The position numbers and the translations under genes are program-made. DNA of 64,000 bases from Streptococcus sanguinis (GTDB lineage: Bacteria; Bacillota; Bacilli; Lactobacillales; Streptococcaceae): positions 377,106-441,105 of the forward strand of contig NZ_CDMW01000001.1 in the NCBI RefSeq assembly GCF_001078705.1, written 5' to 3'. Below the pieces are notes generated by a model that did no database searches, was not told where the DNA came from, and saw only the letters and a program-made list of their open reading frames with translations. Positions 650-23,119 of the stretch are shown here, piece after piece (position 1 is the stretch's first letter; each line of letters starts with the position of its first letter).

Positions 650-1622
650 GCAAGAACTAGACTCTATGGCTCCTTGCAGTAGCTATCAAGGCAGTCTGCC
701 CATCACAGATGAGCTGGCTATCCAGTACACTCTGCTCAAAGGACAGGCCTCCCAGCCCTTGCTGACCATCAGTGCTGCAGTCCATGGCTGCGAGTATGTA
801 GGGGTTAAAGCGCTGATGGACTTGGCGCATGAGTGGGACTTTAGCTTTCAAGGCTCTGTCCTCCTCCTGCATGCAGTCAATGTCAGCGGCTTCTGGGCTC
901 GGGAGACGACACTTGTACCTGAGGACGGCCTCAATCTGAACAGGATTTTTCAGGACCAAGAGCCAGTTTCCAGCCTCAGCTATCAGATTCGGTCTGTGAT
1001 TGAGAGCCAGGTTTTTAGCGTCAGTGATTTCCTCATTGACCTACACAGTGGCAATCGGGAAGAACTGCTGACCCCTCATGGTTACTATTCTCTGCGGGCA
1101 AATCCAGAGGTAATGGAGAAGTCCTATCAGATGCTGCAGGCTTCTGGGACACCGATTATCTACCAGTCTCAGGACCGCGGCAATCTTTATCACGCTGCCT
1201 CGGTGGACTATGGTTTGCCTAGCATCCTGCTGGAGCGGGGAGAAAACGGCACCTGTCTGCCAGAGGATGTGCTGGCCATGAAGGAGTCGGTCAAGCAAGT
1301 TGCGCGTTATCTTTTTGAAGGGACTATGCCCTATTATAAGCAGGCGCCGCTGATCTTTGACGACAGTTACTACCTGACCTGTCAGAGGTCGGGCTGCTGG
1401 ATGTGCTTTGTTCGGCCCAATCAAACAGTACAGGCTGGTCAGGTCATCGGTGAAATCTGTGATATTTATGGCAATATTTTAGAAAAGGTGACTGCCAAGG
1501 AAGACGGTCTGGTCCTCTACCAGAAAGCGACCTTGGTCGTCCACCAAGGCGAAGTGCTGTTGGCTGTAGCTAGCAAGAAGCCTGGAAGCTACCAGACATC
1601 TGAAAGGGAGGCGCATGATTAA
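639..1622 (+). CDS. AstE/aspartoacylase-like zinc metallohydrolase
   Basis: 327 residues from the ATG at 639, chosen because GGGAGG lies just upstream; longer in-frame starts lack a ribosome site. Zinc ligands of the M14-like succinylglutamate desuccinylase/aspartoacylase family are visible: H49-G-C-E52 and D134-L-H136, with an N-L-N-R segment at 99-102. The C-terminal part (about 250-327) is a beta-rich domain as in other members. The family cleaves N-acyl or peptide bonds of small amino-acid derivatives. The gene is embedded in an ABC importer operon, overlapping both neighbours, so it probably processes the imported ligand. No signal peptide is seen, so it should be cytoplasmic. Substrate unknown. 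Confidence 0.75.
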   Translation: MRIKQELDSMAPCSSYQGSLPITDELAIQYTLLKGQASQPLLTISAAVHGCEYVGVKALMDLAHEWDFSFQGSVLLLHAVNVSGFWARETTLVPEDGLNLNRIFQDQEPVSSLSYQIRSVIESQVFSVSDFLIDLHSGNREELLTPHGYYSLRANPEVMEKSYQMLQASGTPIIYQSQDRGNLYHAASVDYGLPSILLERGENGTCLPEDVLAMKESVKQVARYLFEGTMPYYKQAPLIFDDSYYLTCQRSGCWMCFVRPNQTVQAGQVIGEICDIYGNILEKVTAKEDGLVLYQKATLVVHQGEVLLAVASKKPGSYQTSEREAHD

Positions 1623-2610
1623 ATTTATTATCAAAACTATTCTGCAATTCGTCCTCATCCTGCTCTGCGTCAGCTTTATCTCCTTTTTACTGGTTTATCT
1701 AGCACCGGGAGATCCGGCTGAGAGCATCCTCAATGCTCAGGGCATTCCTTTTACCAAGGAACTGCTGGAAATCAAGCGGGCAGAGATGGGACTGAATGGC
1801 AGCTTTATGGAGCAATATCTGGCCTGGCTGGGCAGGATTGTCCATGGTGACTTTGGTGTGACCTATAATTCTGGAGCTTCGGTCTGGGAGCAGCTGGTTT
1901 TCTATTTTCCCAATACAGTCTACCTAGCTTTTTATACCCTGCTAGCGACTCTGGGGATTTCCCTGCCGACAGCTCTCTACACATCCTACCATGCTGGAAA
2001 GCCTATCGACCGCTTCCTGATGGCAGGTCTGGCCTTCCTGAATGCCATTCCTAGCTTTGTTATGGGAATTATCCTGATTCTGATCTTTTCCGTTCAGTTG
2101 CATTGGTTTCCCATTCAGGCAACGGCTAATGAGCTGGGCCTAGTCCTGCCAGTCATGACACTTGCCATGATTATGTCTACTCGCTATATCCCGCAGCTGC
2201 GAACTGCTTTGATAGAAGTGCTACATTCGCCAGAAGTCGAAGGTGCGCGAGGTCGGGGGATTCGAGAGGGACATATCCTACTGCATGATGTGATTTACAA
2301 TGTTCTGCCCTTTCTTCTGACCTTGGTCAGCCTTTCTCTGGGCTCGCTCTTAGGCGGTGTAGCTATTATCGAGCACCTCTTTTCCTGGCCAGGCATCGGT
2401 AAGATGCTGATTGGAGTAGTCGCCAAGCGGGATTATCCCCTTATTCAGGGGGCGGTTCTCTTTATCACAGCTGGTGTCTTGACTGTAAATCTAGTCTTTC
2501 AACTGCTCATGGTTTGGCTCAATCCTCGCATCCGACTGGCTCAGGAAAATCCCAAACTGCTACCGCGCGTGAAGAAACTAAAAGCAAGCAAGGAGGGTTC
2601 GTATGGATAA
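1615..2610 (+). CDS. ABC transporter permease, DppB/OppB type
   Basis: 331 residues with about six membrane segments, the first at 8-30. The N-terminal L-A-P-G-D-P motif and the loop E-x-x-F-x-W-P-G-I-G-(x) are typical of DppB/OppB/NikB permeases; the cytoplasmic EGARGRG stretch is the ATPase coupling helix. The start ATG overlaps the previous gene by eight bases behind a GGGAGG site. It pairs with the next permease to form the channel. Confidence 0.9.
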   Translation: MIKFIIKTILQFVLILLCVSFISFLLVYLAPGDPAESILNAQGIPFTKELLEIKRAEMGLNGSFMEQYLAWLGRIVHGDFGVTYNSGASVWEQLVFYFPNTVYLAFYTLLATLGISLPTALYTSYHAGKPIDRFLMAGLAFLNAIPSFVMGIILILIFSVQLHWFPIQATANELGLVLPVMTLAMIMSTRYIPQLRTALIEVLHSPEVEGARGRGIREGHILLHDVIYNVLPFLLTLVSLSLGSLLGGVAIIEHLFSWPGIGKMLIGVVAKRDYPLIQGAVLFITAGVLTVNLVFQLLMVWLNPRIRLAQENPKLLPRVKKLKASKEGSYG

Positions 2611-3412
2611 AAAAATCAATCGAAAACTCCTGATTTTGGGCGGTCTCATCGTCCTGGCCTTGGTCCTCTCCTCCTTGGCTCCTCGTCTCTTGGGTGACAG
2701 TTTGACCAAGGTCAATCTGGGACAAGCCCTGCAAGGACCGAGCAGCAGTGAATGGTTCGGAACGGACGCTCTGGGTCGGTCTGTCTTTGCGCGTGCAGTA
2801 AGCGGAGGTGCGGAAACAGTCCTACCAGCCCTGATGATTCTAATGCTGATTGCGGCGGTGGGCTCCTTTATCGGGGTGACTAGCGCCTTCATCGGCGGGA
2901 AATTCGACCAGTTCATCTTGCTGGTTATCACGGCCTTTCAGGCTTTTCCATCCATCATTCTGGTCATTGCCATCGTCAGTATCTTGGGCATCGGCCTCCA
3001 GCAAACCCTCATCGCTATCTGCTTGACAGCCTGGACCAAGTATGCCTACCTGATGCGTTCCATGACCCTGCAGCTGAAAAATGAACCCTATATCCAGTCC
3101 TCTAAAATGTATGGCAATAGTTTTTGGACAACTCTGAAAAACTATTATTTTCCCAGTCTTTTTCCGCAGATTCTGACGACCATGAGCTTTGACATCAGCA
3201 CCATTATCATGGAAATCGCTGGTCTCAGCTTTGTCGGATTGGGAGCTCAGGCACCGTCGCCTGAGTGGGGAGCCATGATCAATGACGGCCGGATTTACAT
3301 TCAGGAAGCCCCTTGGATTGTGGTCTTTCCTTGTATCTTGCTGATTTTGACCATTCTCCTCTTTACCAAGTTCGGGGATGTTCTCAACAGCAAGTACAAT
3401 CGCATGAGTTGA
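2603..3412 (+). CDS. ABC transporter permease, DppC/OppC type
   Basis: 269 residues, several membrane helices, with the DppC-family motif F-G-T-D-A-L-G-R near residue 50 and the C-terminal G-L-G-A-Q-x-P-x-P-E-W-G loop. It overlaps the preceding permease by eight bases. Together with the upstream permease and the ATPase(s) at the left edge it makes one complete importer. The binding protein could be the NikA-like lipoprotein at 3506 or a gene to the left of the window. Confidence 0.9.
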   Translation: MDKKINRKLLILGGLIVLALVLSSLAPRLLGDSLTKVNLGQALQGPSSSEWFGTDALGRSVFARAVSGGAETVLPALMILMLIAAVGSFIGVTSAFIGGKFDQFILLVITAFQAFPSIILVIAIVSILGIGLQQTLIAICLTAWTKYAYLMRSMTLQLKNEPYIQSSKMYGNSFWTTLKNYYFPSLFPQILTTMSFDISTIIMEIAGLSFVGLGAQAPSPEWGAMINDGRIYIQEAPWIVVFPCILLILTILLFTKFGDVLNSKYNRMS

Positions 3413-3505
3413 TCATCAAAAAATCAACAGCTAAAAAAATGCAGCCTCCTGTCTCTTGGGACTGCAAACAAAAAAATATGAATACAAGAAAGTGATTCAA
3501 TAAAA

Positions 3506-5113
3506 ATGAGAAAAAAATTATTTTTATTAGTTGTCCTCTTGCTGCCTTTATTCTTGGTAGCCTGCCAGCAAAACTCAAACTCTTCCCAACAGGTCAATGA
3601 GAAAGACAAACTCACTATGGTCTGGGGCGAAGACTTTGGGGATGTCAATCCTCACCGCTACAATCCAGACCAATTTGTCATTCAGGATATGGTCTATGAA
3701 GGCCTTGTCCGCTATGGTGACAATGGGAAAATCGAGCCAGCCTTGGCAGAAAGCTGGGATATTAGTGAAGATGGTAAAACCTATACCTTCAAGCTGAGAA
3801 AGGCAAAATTCTCAGACGACTCTGACTTTAATGCAGAGAATGTCAAACGCAATTTCGATACAGTCTTTTCAGAGGAAAATAAGAAAAACCACACTTGGTT
3901 TGACTTTACCAACCAACTGGAAAGCTACCGAGTTGTCGATGAGCATACCTTTGAAATCAAGCTCAAACAAGCTTACAGTGCGACTCTCTATGATTTATCA
4001 ATGATTCGTCCGATCCGCTTCGTAGCTGATGCGGCCTTCCCTGACGGAGATGACACAACTAAGGATAACCTCAAAAAGCCAATCGGAACTGGTCAATGGG
4101 TTGTCAAAGACAAGAAGGCAAATGAGTACATCACCTTTGTCCGTAATGAAAATTACTGGGGTGAAAAGCCTAAATTGAAAGAAGTAACGGTCAAGATTAT
4201 CCCAGATCCACAAACCCGTGCTTTGGAGTTTGAGTCTGGAAATGTAGACTTGCTCTATGGAAATGGCGTTATCGGTTTGGATAACTTTGCCAAGTATGCC
4301 AAGGATGACAAGTACACGACAGATGTATCTCAGCCAATGTCCAGCCGCCTCATGCTCTTGAATGCCAAGCAAGAAATCTTCAAAGACAAGACTGTCCGTC
4401 AGGCGATGAACCATGCGGTTGATAAGAAGTCTATCGCGAAAGACATTTTCCGCGGAACAGAAACACCAGCTGATACTATCTTCTCTAAGTCTACACCGCA
4501 CTCTGATGCCAATATCACTCCGTATGAGTATGATATCGAGCTGGCTGAAAAGATGCTGGACCAAGCAGGCTGGAAGAAGGGCTCTGACGGTATCCGTGAA
4601 AAAGACGGCAAGAAATTAAGCCTAAATGTTCCTTATATTTCGTCTAAGGCGACAGACAAGGACTTGGTTGAGTACTTCCAAGGCGAATGGAAGAAAATCG
4701 GAATTGACGTTCAGCTCAAAGCTATGGAAGAAGATGACTATTGGGAAAATATTAAGACTGGCGACTTTGATTTGATGCTGACCTTCTCTTGGGGAGCACC
4801 TTGGGATCCGCATGCTTGGATGACTGCCCTGACTTCACCAGCTGACCATGGTCACCCAGAAAATGTTGCCCTAGAAGCTCTGCCATCTAAGTCAGAAATG
4901 GACAGCATTATCAAGGCGACTCTGGTTGAGCCAGACGAAGCAAAAGTTGATGAAGGTTATAAGAAAGTTCTCACTATGCTCCATGATGAAGCTATCTATA
5001 TCCCAATCACTTACCAATCTGTTGTCTCTGTCTATCGCAAGGGAGAACTTGATGGCATGCGCTTTGCTCCAGAAGAAAATGCCTTCCCACTGCGCTATAT
5101 TGAGAAAAAATAA
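3506..5113 (+). CDS. nikA: NikA-like substrate-binding lipoprotein (SBP_5 family)
   Basis: 535 residues. A lipoprotein signal ends in L-V-A-C with the acylated Cys at 20. Several blocks recall E. coli NikA: N-P-H near residue 50, FVRNENYWGEKP near 212, IIPDPQTRALEFESGNVDLLYGN near 230-250, and WGAPWDPHAW near 430, which includes the Trp and a nearby His involved in nickel-chelate binding in NikA. NikA binds Ni2+ as a histidine complex; related proteins bind cobalt, heme or peptides. The gene sits between two permease pairs, so it may serve either. The start has only weak SD-like AAG upstream. I am confident of the family and less so of the metal. Confidence 0.8.
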   Translation: MRKKLFLLVVLLLPLFLVACQQNSNSSQQVNEKDKLTMVWGEDFGDVNPHRYNPDQFVIQDMVYEGLVRYGDNGKIEPALAESWDISEDGKTYTFKLRKAKFSDDSDFNAENVKRNFDTVFSEENKKNHTWFDFTNQLESYRVVDEHTFEIKLKQAYSATLYDLSMIRPIRFVADAAFPDGDDTTKDNLKKPIGTGQWVVKDKKANEYITFVRNENYWGEKPKLKEVTVKIIPDPQTRALEFESGNVDLLYGNGVIGLDNFAKYAKDDKYTTDVSQPMSSRLMLLNAKQEIFKDKTVRQAMNHAVDKKSIAKDIFRGTETPADTIFSKSTPHSDANITPYEYDIELAEKMLDQAGWKKGSDGIREKDGKKLSLNVPYISSKATDKDLVEYFQGEWKKIGIDVQLKAMEEDDYWENIKTGDFDLMLTFSWGAPWDPHAWMTALTSPADHGHPENVALEALPSKSEMDSIIKATLVEPDEAKVDEGYKKVLTMLHDEAIYIPITYQSVVSVYRKGELDGMRFAPEENAFPLRYIEKK

Positions 5114-5144
5114 AAGCTAACTTCATACATACAAATTTGCATAT

Positions 5145-5195
5145 AAAGGGAGTAGTGCTGCCAAGGTTAAAAACTTAGCAGCCGCCCCTTTTCTT
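5145..5195 (+). terminator. Hairpin with T-rich tail between nikA and nikB
   Basis: AAAGGG (5145-5150) pairs with CCCTTT, and GCTGC pairs with GCAGC inside it. The hairpin is followed by TTTCTTTT. It lies directly before nikB, which has no clear Shine-Dalgarno sequence, so it may partially terminate transcription and keep the binding protein in excess over the membrane components. Confidence 0.6.
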
Positions 5196-5204
5196 TTAAG
5201 AAAT

Positions 5205-6146
5205 ATGAAAAAAGATTTATTTAAAACAATAGTTTCTCTCTTTGCTGCCCTCTTGATGATTTCAGTATTGACCTTTCTCTTGGCCAAGCTGTCCTCGGCG
5301 GATCAAGCAGAAAACTATTTAAGAATATCTAAGATTCAAGTGACTCCTCAATCCTTGGAAAAAGCCAGAGAATATCTGGGACTCAATCAACCTTGGCCCC
5401 AGCAGTATCTAGGCTGGCTGACTAAGGCTCTTCGTGGGGATTTTGGGACATCTTATCTATTAAAGGTTCCTGTCCTGCCCCTGGTGTTGGAGCGTTTCCA
5501 GTCCACCCTTTCTCTGGGCTTGACTTCCTTTGCCCTCATTTTGCTTACGTCTATTCCTTTGGGAATTTTTAGTGCAGTCTACAAGGGTTCTCTCTTTGAT
5601 AAGGTCAATCGCTTTCTATCCTTTTCCAGCGTTTCCATGCCCAGCTTTTGGCTAGGTTACATGCTGATTGTGGTTTTTGCTGTTCAGCTCAGATGGCTGC
5701 CAGTTTCGGGCAAGCAGGATTTTAGCAGCTTGATTCTTCCCAGTCTGACCCTTAGTATGTCATTGATTGGCCAATATACCGCCTTGATCCGTAAGGCCGT
5801 GATAGAACAGATGAAGAGTGTCCATGTTGAAAATGCCCTCCTGCGCGGAGTCAGCAAGTTCTTCCTGGTCAAGAATCATCTCTTGAGAAATTCCCTGCCA
5901 GCCATTGCGACAGGCCTGAGCCTGACCTTGGTCTATCTTCTGACAGGCTCCTTGATTGTCGAAGAAGTCTTCTCTTGGAATGGTGTCGGCTCTCTCTTTG
6001 TAGATGCTTTGCAGGCTGTGGATCTACCCATCATCCAGTGCTGTATGCTTTTATTTGGCCTATTATTCTTGGGAAATAATATTCTAACCCAGCAGCTGAC
6101 GCTCTGGATCGACCCTAGAGTCAGAAAAAGGAGGAGCAATGTCTAA
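5205..6146 (+). CDS. nikB: ABC transporter permease, NikB type
   Basis: 313 residues with an N-terminal membrane helix and five or more further helices. The block Y-L-G-L-N-x-P-W-P-x-Q-Y and G-D-F-G-T-S around residue 85 are NikB/DppB hallmarks, as is E-E-V-F-S-W-N-G-V-G in the last third. It overlaps nikC by eight bases. The start follows a hairpin closely and lacks a strong ribosome site, so translation may be inefficient. Confidence 0.85.
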   Translation: MKKDLFKTIVSLFAALLMISVLTFLLAKLSSADQAENYLRISKIQVTPQSLEKAREYLGLNQPWPQQYLGWLTKALRGDFGTSYLLKVPVLPLVLERFQSTLSLGLTSFALILLTSIPLGIFSAVYKGSLFDKVNRFLSFSSVSMPSFWLGYMLIVVFAVQLRWLPVSGKQDFSSLILPSLTLSMSLIGQYTALIRKAVIEQMKSVHVENALLRGVSKFFLVKNHLLRNSLPAIATGLSLTLVYLLTGSLIVEEVFSWNGVGSLFVDALQAVDLPIIQCCMLLFGLLFLGNNILTQQLTLWIDPRVRKRRSNV

Positions 6147-12999: not shown

Positions 13000-13011
13000 T
13001 TTTTACAAAAT

Positions 13012-13053
13012 TGAAAGCGCTTCATTGACAAAGTCTGCCAGATAGTTTATAAT
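13012..13053 (+). promoter_or_regulatory. Consensus sigma-A promoter with cre-like site
   Basis: TTGACA (13025-13030), exactly 17 bases, TATAAT (13048-13053). TGAAAGCGCTTCAT at 13012-13025 matches 11 of 14 positions of the CcpA cre consensus and abuts the -35, so carbon catabolite control is plausible. Transcription would start near 13060, just before the antitermination leader. Confidence 0.75.
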
Positions 13054-13068
13054 ATAATAACAGTATAG

Positions 13069-13146
13069 AAAATGGCAAGGAAGCCTGATTTGATCGCAAT
13101 GAAGCGAGTGTTTCAGAATCAAAGGGGTTTTCTATGCCATTTTTTT
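13069..13146 (+). promoter_or_regulatory. ANTAR (EutV) dual-hairpin antitermination leader
   Basis: P1: GGC-AAGGAA-GCC (13074-13085). P2: TCGC-AATGAA-GCGA (13094-13107). Both hexaloops have A at position 1 and G at position 4, the signature of ANTAR-bound RNA. AAAATGGCA (13069-13077) can instead pair with TGCCATTTT (13135-13143), followed by a T run, forming a terminator that excludes P1. EutV binding would therefore permit read-through into the phosphatase-eutP-cob operon. The motif match is what I see; binding is inferred from the Enterococcus eut system. Confidence 0.72.
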
Positions 13147-13180
13147 GCGCACTATTATTTTTTTATGGAGGATTGTTTCT

Positions 13181-18069: not shown

Positions 18070-18669
18070 ATGCAACTCTATACAAAAACAGGTGACAAGG
18101 GCTTGACTAAGCTAGTTGGCGGCCAAAGTGTCGCCAAGGATGCAGAACGAGTTAATGCTTACGGAACCATTGATGAGCTTAACTCTTGGATTGGTTATAC
18201 CATTACCAAGCTGGACAAGGATGATAAGCTGAGAGATGAGCTGCTCCAGCTGCAGCATTATCTCTTTGACTGTGGTTCAGACCTCTCTACGCCTCAGGGA
18301 GTTTACCCTTATAAGGTCGATCAGCAGCTGATTGACTGGATTGAGGAGAGGATTGATACCTACGCAGAAATTCCACCAGCTTTGGAAAGGTTTATCCTGC
18401 CGGGCGGCGACGAGATTGCTTCCATGATCCATGTGGCTCGGACCATTGCAAGACGGGCAGAGCGTCACATCGTAGGGACCATGTGGACTACGGAAATTAA
18501 CAATAATGTCCTAATTTTTGTCAATCGTCTGTCAGATTACTTCTTTGCCTTGGCTCGAGTAATCAACTTTACCAAACATCAAGAAGATGTGGCCTATGAA
18601 AGAGGTGCCAAGGTCTTCCACAATATCACCAAGGCGGATGTTGAGCGTTGGGCAAGCAAGCGCCAGTGA
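18070..18669 (+). CDS. pduO: PduO-type ATP:cob(I)alamin adenosyltransferase
   Basis: 199 residues behind AAAGGAGG. Y-T-K-T-G-D-K-G at 4-11 is the PduO ATP-binding N-terminus, and T-I-A-R-R-A-E-R-H near 130 with N-R-L-S-D-Y-F-F near 155 are the conserved PduO helices. It attaches 5'-deoxyadenosine to cob(I)alamin and makes the AdoCbl that EutBC needs. The C-terminal heme-binding domain of PduO of Salmonella is absent; this is the single-domain form. Last gene of the operon. Confidence 0.92.
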   Translation: MQLYTKTGDKGLTKLVGGQSVAKDAERVNAYGTIDELNSWIGYTITKLDKDDKLRDELLQLQHYLFDCGSDLSTPQGVYPYKVDQQLIDWIEERIDTYAEIPPALERFILPGGDEIASMIHVARTIARRAERHIVGTMWTTEINNNVLIFVNRLSDYFFALARVINFTKHQEDVAYERGAKVFHNITKADVERWASKRQ

Positions 18670-18685
18670 TAAAAAGAAACAGAAA

Positions 18686-18737
18686 AAGTTCTGTCTTTCC
18701 AATTCGGACTTTACCGAGTCTTGTAAGGACAGAACTT
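18686..18737. terminator. Bidirectional terminator between pduO and the antisense eut RNA
   Basis: AAGTTCTGTCTT pairs with AAGGACAGAACTT (one bulged G). Plus-strand tail TATTTT ends pduO. The minus strand has TTTTTCTGTTTCTTTTT, a strong U tract, to end the minus-strand RNA. Confidence 0.8.
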
Positions 18738-18766
18738 ATTTTAATCTTCGAAAAAGAAAGCAGCCT

Positions 18767-18808
18767 ATACATCATTGTATCTTCATGCTAAGCTTCGTTG
18801 ATTAGCAC
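18767..18808 (-). promoter_or_regulatory. Paired ANTAR-type hairpins in the antisense RNA
   Basis: P1 (18808-18785): GTGCTAA/TTAGCAT stem, one mismatch, a C-G pair closing hexaloop AACGAA. P2 (18780-18767): ATAC-AATGAT-GTAT. Both loops have A1 and G4, four bases apart. They would capture EutV. Confidence 0.65.
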
Positions 18809-18969
18809 TAGCTTTCCAATTATTGACTCTGCTCCTTTGCAGAAAGACAAGAAAAACCTCATCTTTAGAAAATTAACGTACTTAAACGTAGAGTCAATAA
18901 TGGAAACTAAGCTAAAATGTTTGTTCCAAACTGACATCACTACCTTACATCGAGGCATGAAATCTACTA

Positions 18970-19080
18970 AAATTTAAGAATAAAGACCTGACTTAAAGCC
19001 GAAAAGCTTATCACAGTGGCGGGACCGCGCTGGATTTGCACCAGACTTCCATATCCTTAAAAGTACTAAAATCAATTTCC
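18970..19080 (-). promoter_or_regulatory. Adenosylcobalamin riboswitch aptamer
   Basis: On the minus strand the core reads GGAAGTCTGGTGCAAATCC, then a GCGGTCCCGCCACTGTGA block, matching the cobalamin aptamer pattern GGAA-n4-GGTG-n-AA-n-TCC / GC-GGTCCCGCCACTGT; AAGTCAGGTC further on resembles the B12-box end. No coding gene follows in this orientation, so it does not control an ordinary mRNA. The exact boundaries are approximate. Confidence 0.85.
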
Positions 19081-19090
19081 TAGTAACTAG

Positions 19091-19119
19091 ATTGTAACAC
19101 CTTTCACAGGTAATTACAA
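19091..19119 (-). promoter_or_regulatory. Promoter of the antisense riboswitch RNA
   Basis: Minus strand TTGTAA (19119-19114), 17-base spacer, TGT-TACAAT (-10 at 19096-19091) with extended TG. It starts transcription a few bases before the aptamer. Confidence 0.75.
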
Positions 19120-19220: not shown

Positions 19221-19249
19221 TTGCCATGAAAGCGCTTTTGTGTTATAAT
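19221..19249 (+). promoter_or_regulatory. eutG promoter with cre site in the spacer
   Basis: TTGCCA (19221-19226), 17 bases, TATAAT (19244-19249) with TG extension. TGAAAGCGCTTTTG (19227-19240) matches 12 of 14 cre positions and fills the spacer, so CcpA would block RNA polymerase directly. Confidence 0.8.
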
Positions 19250-19256
19250 TCAATAT

Positions 19257-19354
19257 AGTACAAAGGGGTACTGAAGATAAATAAGCAATGAAGCTATATG
19301 AAAATGCTGTGACGTGTGTAGGGGAGCAGTCTTATTTTCATATAGCTTCTTTTT
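19257..19354 (+). promoter_or_regulatory. ANTAR dual-hairpin/terminator leader of eutG
   Basis: P1: AGTAC-AAAGGG-GTACT (19257-19272). P2: AGC-AATGAA-GCT (19284-19295). The terminator is a perfect 16-bp stem, GAAGCTATATGAAAAT (19290-19305) with ATTTTCATATAGCTTC (19334-19349), followed by TTTTT. P2 shares bases with the 5' arm, so EutV bound to P1/P2 prevents termination. Confidence 0.88.
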
Positions 19355-19387: not shown

Positions 19388-20530
19388 ATGTATAAGATTT
19401 CCTATAAGACTGAATTGCATGTGGGCAAGGGCGCTCTGCAGCAATTAAGCCATTATAAAAACGAGCATATTTTAGTCGTTGCCGATCCTTTTTTGAAGAC
19501 ATCTGGCACGCTGGATGCTATTTTAGCCAACTTTGATGACAGCAATGATATTGTTGTTTTCACGGATATTGTGCCTGATCCGCCAATCGAAACAGTTGTG
19601 GCTGGTATCAAGAGTGCAGGAGACAAGCCAATCAGCATTGTGCTTTCTATTGGCGGAGGCTCTGCCATTGATGCTTCCAAGGCTATGTATTATTTTGCCA
19701 AGAAGCAGGGTGCCTTCTCAGAGGCCATTCTCATTGCCATTCCGACGACAAGTGGAACTGGATCTGAAGTGACCGACTTTTCTGTTATCACAGATGCAGA
19801 CAAAGGCACCAAGTATCCTTTGGTGACCAGTGAAATTCTGCCAGATGTTGCTATCTTGGATGCGGATTTGGTAATGTCTCTTCCTAGCAACATCACAGCA
19901 GATACAGGAATGGATGTGCTGACTCACGCTATTGAAGCCTATGTATCCACTGAAGCAACCGACTTCTCCGATGCCTTGGCTGAAAAGGCAATTAAGCTAG
20001 TCTTTGAATATCTGCCTAAAGCCTACAAAAATGGTCAGGATGTAGAAGCGCGTGAAAAGATGCACGCAGCATCCACTCTGGCAGGTATGGCCTTCAATAC
20101 AGCTTACTTGGGTATCAACCATAGTCTGGCACATGCGGCAGGTGCCAAATTCCATGTTCCTCATGGTCGTTTAAACAGTATTTTAATGCCCCATGTCATT
20201 CAGTATAATGCTGGTATCGATCTCAGTAATCGGGGCCGGCAGGCAGTGGACAAGACTGTAGCCAGCCGCTATCAGGATATTGCCAAACTACTGGGATGCA
20301 GTGCTTCAAGCCCTGTTTCAGGAGTAAGGCAGCTGGTTGAAGCTATCAAGAAGCTGCAGAGAAAGCTGGAGATGCCAACTTCTCTGAGAGAATACGGTGT
20401 GAAAGCAGATGTCTTTGCTCAGTACAAGGTAGAAATTTCAGAAGCTGCCCTGCATGATGGCTGTACTCCGACTAACCCTCGTGTCCCTACGGCAGAAGAA
20501 CTGCTTAAAGTATTAGAGAAAGCGTTTTAA
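19388..20530 (+). CDS. eutG: Iron-dependent alcohol dehydrogenase
   Basis: 380 residues behind GAAAGGAG. The Fe-ADH pattern is complete: GGGSAIDASKA near 90 for NAD(H) binding, T-T-S-G-T-G-S-E near 120, and metal ligands in D-V-L-T-H-A-I-E-A-Y (near 178), N-H-S-L-A-H (near 242) and a later H-V-P-H-G. It reduces acetaldehyde to ethanol and recycles NADH from EutE inside the compartment. First gene after the ANTAR leader; the next gene has its own promoter. Confidence 0.9.
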   Translation: MYKISYKTELHVGKGALQQLSHYKNEHILVVADPFLKTSGTLDAILANFDDSNDIVVFTDIVPDPPIETVVAGIKSAGDKPISIVLSIGGGSAIDASKAMYYFAKKQGAFSEAILIAIPTTSGTGSEVTDFSVITDADKGTKYPLVTSEILPDVAILDADLVMSLPSNITADTGMDVLTHAIEAYVSTEATDFSDALAEKAIKLVFEYLPKAYKNGQDVEAREKMHAASTLAGMAFNTAYLGINHSLAHAAGAKFHVPHGRLNSILMPHVIQYNAGIDLSNRGRQAVDKTVASRYQDIAKLLGCSASSPVSGVRQLVEAIKKLQRKLEMPTSLREYGVKADVFAQYKVEISEAALHDGCTPTNPRVPTAEELLKVLEKAF

Positions 20531-20994: not shown

Positions 20995-21570
20995 ATGAAG
21001 GGCAGAATTCTAATTGTTGATGATGATCCAATCGTAAGATTAGATATTCGAAAGATCTTAGAAGCTGGCGATTATGAAGTGGTAGCTGAAGCATCTGATG
21101 GCTTTGAGGCTATTGATTTGTGTCAGAAATATCGTTGTGACTTGGTCATGATGGATATCAAACTGCCGCTTTTGGATGGTCTGACAGCAGGCAAGAAGAT
21201 ACTGGAAGATGCCTTGGCTTATAGCGTGATTCTACTGTCAGCCTACAGTGATGAGCACTATATCCAAAAGGCCAAAACCAATGGCATTAGTGCTTATTTG
21301 GTTAAACCTTTGGATGCCAAGTCCTTGATTCCGATGGTAGAGGTCTGCATTGAGAAAGGCCGCGAGCTACAACAGATGTCCAATGAAATGGTCAAGCTGT
21401 CGAAAAAGATAGACGATCGGATTGTGATTGAAAAGGCCAAAGGCCTACTGATGGCTCGTGATCATTTGTCAGAGCCAGAAGCTTTCAAACGCATTCGGAC
21501 AATTAGTATGCAAAAGAGAGTGCCGATGATTGAGATTGCTAAATTGCTGGTGCTCCAAGATGATGTGTAA
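20995..21570 (+). CDS. eutV: ANTAR response regulator EutV
   Basis: 191 residues. The receiver domain spans 1-120 with acidic pocket D9-D10 and phospho-acceptor D54, T/S switch and Lys in Y-L-V-K-P-L. A coiled-coil linker leads to the ANTAR domain (about 128-188: K-A-K-G-L-L-M, then three helices ending I-E-I-A-K-L-L-V). ANTAR domains bind paired hexaloop hairpins and prevent termination; EutV does so in response to ethanolamine sensed by EutW. The target hairpins are found at 13069, 19257 and 23016. The stop codon overlaps the eutW start by one base. Confidence 0.95.
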   Translation: MKGRILIVDDDPIVRLDIRKILEAGDYEVVAEASDGFEAIDLCQKYRCDLVMMDIKLPLLDGLTAGKKILEDALAYSVILLSAYSDEHYIQKAKTNGISAYLVKPLDAKSLIPMVEVCIEKGRELQQMSNEMVKLSKKIDDRIVIEKAKGLLMARDHLSEPEAFKRIRTISMQKRVPMIEIAKLLVLQDDV

Positions 21571-23006
21571 TGATGTATAAAGATAAGATAAAGCAGCTTT
21601 GTCAGGAACAGACAAATTTGGATGAGGCTGATATCGAGCATCTTGTCCAACAGGCTGACGAATTATTGAAAAACTCAGCTTATGCAAATGAAGATGTCTT
21701 CATTGACGTAAAGAATATCTTTTCGGAACATGCCATTGTCATCTTTCATAAAAAGCCGGAAAGCAAGCTCAGCTTGTACGAAAACTCGGTCGTGGGTGCT
21801 ATGGCCTATCTGGAAAATGAGCCAGGTGTTATCCGGACCTTGGAGACGGGTGCTCCTTCGATAGGGCTTTCGGCCAGATCGCAGGAGGGCTTAGCCATCC
21901 ATCAGACGGTCTTTCCGATAGTGAGAGAAGAGCGGGTCATTGGAACGCTGATTATCGAAAGAAATGCTCCTCAGACTTTACCGGACCACTTTTCTTTAGA
22001 TAAAGAGGACGACGATTTTGAGTTACGGAGCAATCCTGAGATTACAGCGCAAGAGCAGTTTGTTTTATTTGATTATATAGATGAAGCTTGTCTGATCTTT
22101 GACCGGGAGGGCTATCTCAAGTATTTCAATCAGGCTGCTGCTGATTCTTATCGCTATAAGCTAGGTTATATGGACTCGATTGAGGGAATGCACTATAGCA
22201 ATCTGGTCTTAGACAGTCTGCCTTTTGAAGAAATCCAGCAACTGGGACCGCAAGCCCCTCAAGAAAAACCTCACCAAGTTGAGGTACATTATGGCACTTA
22301 TTGCTTTTTGGTCAAGCGCTACCTGCTGGCTGAGAGTGAAAATGTGGTCATGATCTGTAAGGATATTACAGACATCAAGGAAAAGGAAGCGCAGCTCTTA
22401 ACCCATACAACTACCATTCGTGAAATGAACCATCGGGTAAAGAATCACTTGCAAACCGTTGTTTCCTTGCTGCGACTACAGGCTCAGCAAAGTCCAGGAG
22501 CAGACACCAAAAAAGCTCTTAATGACAGTATGAATCGTGTGCTCTCCATAGCGGCGACTCACGAGCTCCTGTCTTCTCAGCAGGATGACAGCATTCAGAT
22601 TGAGCATCTGCTGAAGAAAGTTATCGAAAATGTTCAGCGCTGTTTTTCTGGGCATAGGGAAATAGCCCTGACCTACAGCTTGGAACCGGAACTCTGTCTT
22701 GACAGCAGCCGGGCTACTTCACTGGCGCTAATCGTCAATGAATTACTGCAGAATAGCTATGAACATGCTTTTAAGGACAAAAAAAATCTAGAAAAACCGC
22801 AAATCCATTTGCAGGTTGGACTTAAAAATGATATAATAACTTTAAAAGTACTGGATAATGGTAGCGGTTACAATCAAGAGCATTCCTTTGAGAATCATCT
22901 GGGTCTGCTCTTGGTGGAGCGCTTTGTCCAAGGAAAATTGTTTGGAACCTTGTCTATCCACTCAGACCATGAGGGGACGATAACGACCATTCGTTTTAAA
23001 AAATAA
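21570..23006 (+). CDS. eutW: Ethanolamine sensor histidine kinase EutW
   Basis: 478 residues with no membrane segment, so a soluble kinase. N-terminal GAF-like and PAS-like regions occupy about 1-265, with a DHp domain around H288 (E-M-N-H-R-V-K-N-H-L-Q, the HWE/HisKA_2 type), N box in V-N-E-L-L-Q-N-S-Y-E-H and G box V-L-D-N-G-S-G near 430. It phosphorylates EutV when ethanolamine is present. Two ATGs occur in tandem at 21570 and 21573. Confidence 0.93.
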   Translation: MMYKDKIKQLCQEQTNLDEADIEHLVQQADELLKNSAYANEDVFIDVKNIFSEHAIVIFHKKPESKLSLYENSVVGAMAYLENEPGVIRTLETGAPSIGLSARSQEGLAIHQTVFPIVREERVIGTLIIERNAPQTLPDHFSLDKEDDDFELRSNPEITAQEQFVLFDYIDEACLIFDREGYLKYFNQAAADSYRYKLGYMDSIEGMHYSNLVLDSLPFEEIQQLGPQAPQEKPHQVEVHYGTYCFLVKRYLLAESENVVMICKDITDIKEKEAQLLTHTTTIREMNHRVKNHLQTVVSLLRLQAQQSPGADTKKALNDSMNRVLSIAATHELLSSQQDDSIQIEHLLKKVIENVQRCFSGHREIALTYSLEPELCLDSSRATSLALIVNELLQNSYEHAFKDKKNLEKPQIHLQVGLKNDIITLKVLDNGSGYNQEHSFENHLGLLLVERFVQGKLFGTLSIHSDHEGTITTIRFKK

Positions 23007-23015
23007 ATACTACCA

Positions 23016-23106
23016 GACTAACAATGATGTCAGTCGAAAAAAGCAATGACGCTTGAAGAATGTAAATGAACTCTGTTTGTTTGCATTGCTTTGAGCGTCT
23101 TTTTTT
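23016..23106 (+). promoter_or_regulatory. ANTAR dual-hairpin/terminator leader of eutA
   Basis: P1: GACTAAC-AATGAT-GTCAGTC (23016-23035), one A.C mismatch. P2: AAGC-AATGAC-GCTT (23041-23054). The terminator stem GACGCT (23048-23053) with AGCGTC (23094-23099) precedes seven T; its 5' arm is inside P2. Read-through from eutSVW into eutABC would depend on EutV. Confidence 0.85.
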
Positions 23107-23119
23107 GGAGGTTTTTAGT

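Follow-up and report, generated by a model that had tools for sequence, protein, structure and literature searches.

The window analysed here, a stretch of 64,000 nucleotides of Streptococcus sanguinis DNA, contained an EutX-like feature on the minus strand (18683–19119), between pduO and the gene in the eutG position. Along that strand, a promoter-like site was followed by an AdoCbl aptamer, by three hairpins with hexaloops and by a terminator-like repeat. The window also encodes EutV and EutW and has three EutV leader sites on the plus strand. The features of the locus were assigned as follows:

13070–13150, plus strand: EutV-type leader before the gene at 13145 and eutP, a presumed target (hexaloop scan)
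18070–18669, plus strand: pduO (PduO_Nterm above cut-off)
18683–18740, minus strand: terminator-like inverted repeat, arms 18740–18721 and 18702–18683 (repeat search)
18767–18780, minus strand: hairpin H3, ATAC-AATGAT-GTAT (hexaloop scan, alignment, covariation test)
18786–18807, minus strand: hairpin H2, loop AACGAA, one stem mismatch (hexaloop scan, alignment, covariation test)
18829–18842, minus strand: hairpin H1, CTGC-AAAGGA-GCAG (hexaloop scan, alignment, covariation test)
18929–19077, minus strand: AdoCbl (cobalamin) aptamer (RF01482, 128.6 bits, E 1.7e-24)
19091–19119, minus strand: promoter-like site with an extended -10 (promoter scan; TTGTAA-17-TACAAT, TG before the -10)
19221–19352, plus strand: promoter-like site and EutV-type leader of eutG, a target (scans for promoter, hexaloop and repeats)
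19388–20530, plus strand: iron-type alcohol dehydrogenase gene in the eutG position, named by position
20995–21570, plus strand: EutV, response regulator with an ANTAR domain (Pfam Response_reg, ANTAR)
21570–23006, plus strand: EutW, histidine kinase, named by position (Pfam GAF_PdtaS, HisKA_2, HATPase_c)
23015–23115, plus strand: EutV-type leader before eutA, a presumed target (hairpins, terminator partly by eye)

The gene in the eutG position matched no NCBIfam model at its cut-off. On the plus strand at 1615–6146, ahead of the eut region, a gene for a NikA-type binding protein (above cut-off) was observed beside NikB/Opp-like permease genes that scored below cut-off.

The promoter-like site of the minus-strand RNA matched 9 of 12 consensus positions. 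A promoter scan of a 2-kb stretch returned 6 sites against a shuffle mean of 4.0 (sd 2.0), which is within chance; the support for the site therefore comes from its conservation, the -10 with its TG and the -35 being recognisable throughout the streptococcal alignment. Based on the position of the -10, the RNA would start near 19084. The aptamer was complete, represented the sole Rfam match at gathering level in the window, and was overlapped by small reading frames only. A 56-codon minus-strand frame (18958–18788) overlapping the region could suggest an ordinary cis riboswitch for a small gene on that strand. This frame starts inside the aptamer and crosses helix P0 (described below) and H1, relatives carry indels there, conservation across it tracks structure, and the next gene, pduO, is on the plus strand; the probability of such a riboswitch was considered negligible.

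The arms of the terminator-like repeat were 85% complementary, with 18 nt between them, and were followed by a T-rich stretch on the minus strand; reading of the sequence revealed T-rich sequence after the stem on both strands. The repeat was not in the list of the terminator scan, as its 18-nt loop exceeded the limit of that scan. Approximately 26 nt separate the end of H3 from the repeat, so the hexaloops do not overlap the terminator. The original prediction of a promoter, a cobalamin aptamer and a terminator on the minus strand was thus accurate in both coordinates and order.

Hexaloop hairpins and the EutV regulon

The original prediction counted two A1/G4 hexaloops; their kind and their place on the minus strand were confirmed, but their number was not, as three could be found and H3 (18780–18767) had been missed. 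H2 and H3 occur close together, resembling the published dual motif, and the outer two pairs of H1 use bases common to P0. Close pairs of A1/G4 hexaloops closed by C-G numbered 4 on both strands of the window, whereas 30 block shuffles gave 0.53 on average and never more than 3; the 4 pairs were H1-H2, H2-H3, the eutG leader, and the leader at 13094–13131. The published P2 consensus with one mismatch allowed gave 12 matches in the window against 7.84 expected, which is not above chance, while a P2-related pattern gave 18 matches genome-wide and 4 for the reversed control.

Alignment of 17 distinct sequences (16 streptococcal loci and the window) revealed an invariant G4 in all three hairpins. 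Across the streptococcal alignment, some strains carry another base at A1 of H1 or H3, and the H2 stem mismatch was seen in most species. According to the structure paper (PMC8934654), G4 is contacted by EutV and A1 is not. Pairing of H1–H3 was retained in 98.0% of alignment cells compared to at most 51.6% when the pairing was slid, and the covariation score exceeded all 500 shuffles, although the tool cautions that related sequences can do so. Pairs changed on both sides numbered 2 against a shuffle mean of 1.2, a value reached by 159 of 500 shuffles and hence not above chance.

EutV of the window matched E. faecalis EutV (6wsh/6ww6) with 217.5 bits. Within the aligned ANTAR segment, Tyr164, Arg168 and Met172 of the structure paper (PMC8934654) correspond to Phe, Arg and Met in the window protein, with the numbering assigned by counting.

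The three plus-strand leaders have their hexaloops beside terminators; that of eutG carried a dual hexaloop (19256–19295) and terminator arms at 19287–19305 and 19334–19352. The hexaloop scan of the window revealed no EutV-type leader ahead of eutS. The gene at 13145, which sits between the first EutV-type leader (plus-strand region 13010–13150) and eutP and had no strong NCBIfam match, may belong to the EutV regulon based on the leader position. Genes downstream of the same leader include cobD, cobT and pduO, which help to make AdoCbl, so that a positive feedback loop through AdoCbl synthesis is plausible. TGAAAGCGCTT-type sequences, which we take to be cre-like, were present at the plus-strand promoters before the 13145 gene (13012–13024) and eutG (19227–19239), and visual inspection revealed none in the promoter of the minus-strand RNA.

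Taken on its sequence features, the minus-strand RNA is very probably the streptococcal EutX, a trans-acting sponge for EutV under AdoCbl control. As in EutX and Rli55, an AdoCbl aptamer occupies the 5' part of a predicted non-coding transcript, A1/G4 hexaloops follow the aptamer clear of the terminator, and EutV/EutW share one locus with EutV-type leaders. The original proposal of an AdoCbl-controlled EutV sponge like EutX/Rli55 is consistent with every testable feature (aptamer, hexaloops, EutV/EutW and leaders). In the absence of AdoCbl, the full RNA of approximately 400 nt would be transcribed and its three G4 hexaloop hairpins would capture active EutV, which would then no longer counteract the leader terminators of the eutP operon, eutG and eutA. 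When AdoCbl is bound, a shorter RNA lacking the hairpins would be made and EutV would stay free. AdoCbl-dependent shortening and EutV capture are described for E. faecalis and Listeria in a review (PMC5821096), and the streptococcal RNA is presumed to behave alike.

Section 9 of that review, citing Mellin et al. 2014, describes EutX as reverse-oriented in the S. sanguinis eut locus, so the finding was already known: the RNA is a known case of a known kind, and the genus-wide flip, the third hexaloop and the candidate helix PX described below are additions of modest weight. A metatranscriptome paper (PMC7160235) mentions a Streptococcus cobalamin-riboswitch transcript beside an adenosyltransferase gene, which is probably this locus. 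The paper on a riboswitch RNA-seq tool (PMC12121620), which included S. sanguinis data, reports that under its conditions the tool picked up no termination event even for the characterised locus of E. faecalis; this null result at the counterpart weighs against the sponge reading.

Genome-wide, RF01482 gave a single match, at this aptamer, and RF00174 hit only the same location with a score under cut-off. As the sole site found with either model in the genome, the aptamer suggests that riboswitch sensing of AdoCbl is devoted to a protein sponge here.

Orientation in relatives and the neighbouring genes

The RNA was initially described as opposing both neighbouring operons. This applies to pduO, with which the RNA is convergent, but not to eutG, from which it is divergent; neither frame is overlapped. 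A second layer of control had also been proposed, namely possible interference with pduO or eutG, read here as action of the RNA in cis, by antisense pairing or polymerase collision, in addition to its sponge role. In favour of this, the terminator-like repeat is common to both strands of the convergent pair, and 18 of 30 streptococcal loci have pduO as the immediate, convergent neighbour. However, the RNA ends approximately 14 nt past the pduO stop, so its overlap with pduO transcripts would be limited to the shared terminator; this repeat, placed just past the stop and T-rich on both strands, can end both transcripts tail-to-tail. At the other end, the RNA start lies about 137 nt from the eutG -35 (19221) and transcription heads away. 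The positions and directions of the predicted transcripts thus lend no support to an effect of the RNA on the 3' end of pduO or on the promoter of eutG.

The region was matched by 33 of 284 genomes of the genus, ten of them at 95–97%, and EutV of named S. sanguinis records was 97% identical to the window EutV, which places the window in that species group. Among the 30 streptococcal loci compared, 29 included the hairpin region, and in the remaining one (L030) the match was limited to the aptamer. The eutG gene was divergent from the RNA in all 28 loci where it was found; it was not found within reach in L023, which is near a contig end, and L030. For pduO, the distance was approximately 1.4 kb in L014, and a search over 1.5 kb did not locate the gene in 11 of the 30. 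Twelve of the 30 loci therefore retain the RNA even though pduO is either separated from it or was not located within 1.5 kb, and the RNA is kept in divergent streptococci although its downstream neighbour changes. In L030 (G030, 1501–1660), the aptamer resembled the streptococcal one, the downstream sequence differed, and eutG was not found within 1.5 kb; this aptamer may be a decayed copy or a riboswitch of the ordinary kind.

A strict aptamer pattern was found in 20 of 80 EutV loci from named genomes. The aptamer was opposite eutG in all 12 Streptococcus loci, which partly come from the same genomes as the 33 region matches, and on the eutG strand in all eight others (Jeotgalibaca, two Listeria, Floricoccus, Brevibacillus, two Enterococcus and Veillonella). 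Among 35 further stretches upstream of eutV, the Rfam aptamer was present in 32, on the eutV strand in 30 and opposite in two, L172 (Streptococcus) and L163 (another genus). The flip was thus seen in all Streptococcus loci that had both features, and outside the genus in a single genome. In L163 (G579, 2160–2305), a flipped EutX of streptococcal type occurred with an EutV 75% identical to that of the window, which points to a transfer of this locus, with the L163 lineage as a possible donor or recipient. An Rfam rli56 match was observed near eutV in the Listeria-type loci L165, L166, L167 and L168.

The flip is a streptococcal trait that probably arose in one event, and it reads as a trait of the genus rather than as a sign of a second control layer. 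Since the RNA is kept without an adjacent pduO and lies codirectionally in the other genera examined except L163, cis interference is unlikely as a conserved function, and we regard action of the RNA on pduO or eutG in cis, besides its sponge role, as highly improbable. The reversed orientation would make no difference to EutX action, because the RNA would act in trans. The sponge reading gains a wider meaning here: across streptococci that use ethanolamine, a B12-controlled EutV sponge appears to be conserved in flipped orientation, and this fits action in trans and argues against cis interference.

Site of AdoCbl action and candidate long-range pairing

A strict search revealed no canonical terminator just after the aptamer in any of 15 streptococcal sequences; the sequence therefore does not show where the AdoCbl-dependent form would end. 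In the other set, such a terminator was found in 7 of 31 loci, including all three Listeria-type loci; L172, the Streptococcus locus of this set, had none, and L162, with a visible T-run after an imperfect stem, was left out of the count. A hairpin right after the aptamer (GGAA...UUUCC, T hairpin) was considered as the AdoCbl terminator and was not supported: it lacked compensatory changes, a slide of -1 paired nearly as well (91.2% against 92.6%), and shuffles of the inner loop gave a Fisher p of 0.117 over 9 sequences, a test that left out the computed tenth sequence, L072, with S. sanguinis scoring worse than its own shuffles.

Two further helices could be proposed, with the following arms:

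18813–18830, minus strand: P0 3' arm (fold, repeat search, alignment, shuffle test)
18890–18906, minus strand: P0 5' arm (fold, repeat search, alignment, shuffle test)
18866–18883, minus strand: candidate PX 3' arm (folding of growing RNA, shuffle tests)
19061–19082, minus strand: 5' leader, also the 5' arm of candidate helix PX (PX folding and shuffle tests)

P0 (18906–18890 with 18830–18813) comprises 17 pairs and encloses H1. Taken as one set, P0, H2, H3 and the two inner pairs of H1 were paired in 97.0% of cells against at most 47.4% when slid. The covariation score of the same set was above all 500 shuffles, while its pairs changed on both sides (3 against a mean of 2.2, reached by 174 of 500) were not above chance. 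A P0-like stem in the same place reached p < 0.05 in 13 of 24 sequences, the window included. The shuffles in the hexaloop scan, in the T hairpin and PX tests and in the test for P0-like stems were of single letters, not dinucleotides.

The candidate PX, in which the leader (19082–19061) pairs with 18883–18866, emerged on folding of the nascent RNA up to 18866. Within Streptococcus, all 14 distinct leader/element pairs beat their shuffles (p 0.002–0.044), the sequences being related; coevolution was not significant (own pairs -12.7 against cross pairs -12.1 kcal/mol, permutation p 0.12). The first cross-genus test, which was unconstrained, gave a weak result, with p < 0.05 in 7 of 32 sequences and p 0.59 for the window itself. 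With the search for the partner restricted to the stretch before H1, 11 of 27 sequences, representing 7 of 14 genera, had p < 0.05; the leader and search stretch had been narrowed after the partners were seen, so these p values are not those of a pre-fixed test, and several of the 11 sequences come from one genus. The positive set includes Listeria-type loci with different leader sequences. This test dropped L149, L152, L158, L159 and L172, which had no clear H1; L166, near-identical to L165, was omitted from both cross-genus tests, and the P0 test also dropped L148, L167 and L175 as redundant. A CTACG stretch just before the PX 3' arm (18883–18890, minus strand) was nearly invariant in the streptococcal alignment, and neither P0 nor PX accounts for the whole of it.

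The arms of PX and P0 interleave, and the minimum-energy fold of the full-length RNA contains P0 but not PX. It is conceivable, though rather doubtful, that EutX RNAs share a long-range architecture in which the 5' end pairs before the first hairpin and forms a pseudoknot interleaved with P0, with PX serving as a clamp or a hexaloop selector. PX would occur only in the B12-free long form, because only this form contains its 3' arm. If so, the 5' end of the active sponge could be clamped by PX and thereby shielded, with the B12-terminated short form left exposed to decay; alternatively, PX could set which hexaloops are shown.

The interleaved arms, the conserved P0 and the missing canonical terminator in Streptococcus could also suggest that AdoCbl refolds the full RNA instead of causing termination, with P0 and PX competing against the aptamer to hide or show the hexaloops. 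The review (PMC5821096) describes the E. faecalis short form as ending at the end of the aptamer without a long U-run, so the missing terminator is weak evidence for refolding, and control by refolding was considered unlikely. Nor is a canonical terminator after the aptamer a defining feature of EutX/Rli55, because Enterococcus-like loci also lack one.

Comparison with known systems

The nearest counterpart is the EutX of S. sanguinis itself (Mellin et al. 2014, as cited in PMC5821096), which occurs at the same locus in the same reverse orientation; no difference from the account in that review was found. The E. faecalis EutX (DebRoy et al. 2014), as described in PMC5821096 and PMC8934654, likewise consists of an aptamer followed by terminator-free EutV hexaloops and adjoins eutG. 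PMC8934654 also describes a single hexaloop additional to the dual one in E. faecalis EutX, as in the window RNA, and the Enterococcus loci L084 and L085 showed H1-H2-H3 with similar spacing. The Enterococcus-like loci examined resembled Streptococcus in having no canonical U-run terminator after the aptamer. In contrast to the window RNA, E. faecalis EutX is codirectional with eutG (PMC5821096; L084 and L085). Listeria Rli55 revealed the same order of leader, aptamer, P0 arm, PX arm, hexaloop, P0 arm and hexaloops, whereas the Listeria loci differed from the streptococcal RNA in carrying a canonical U-run terminator right after the aptamer and in being codirectional with eutG.
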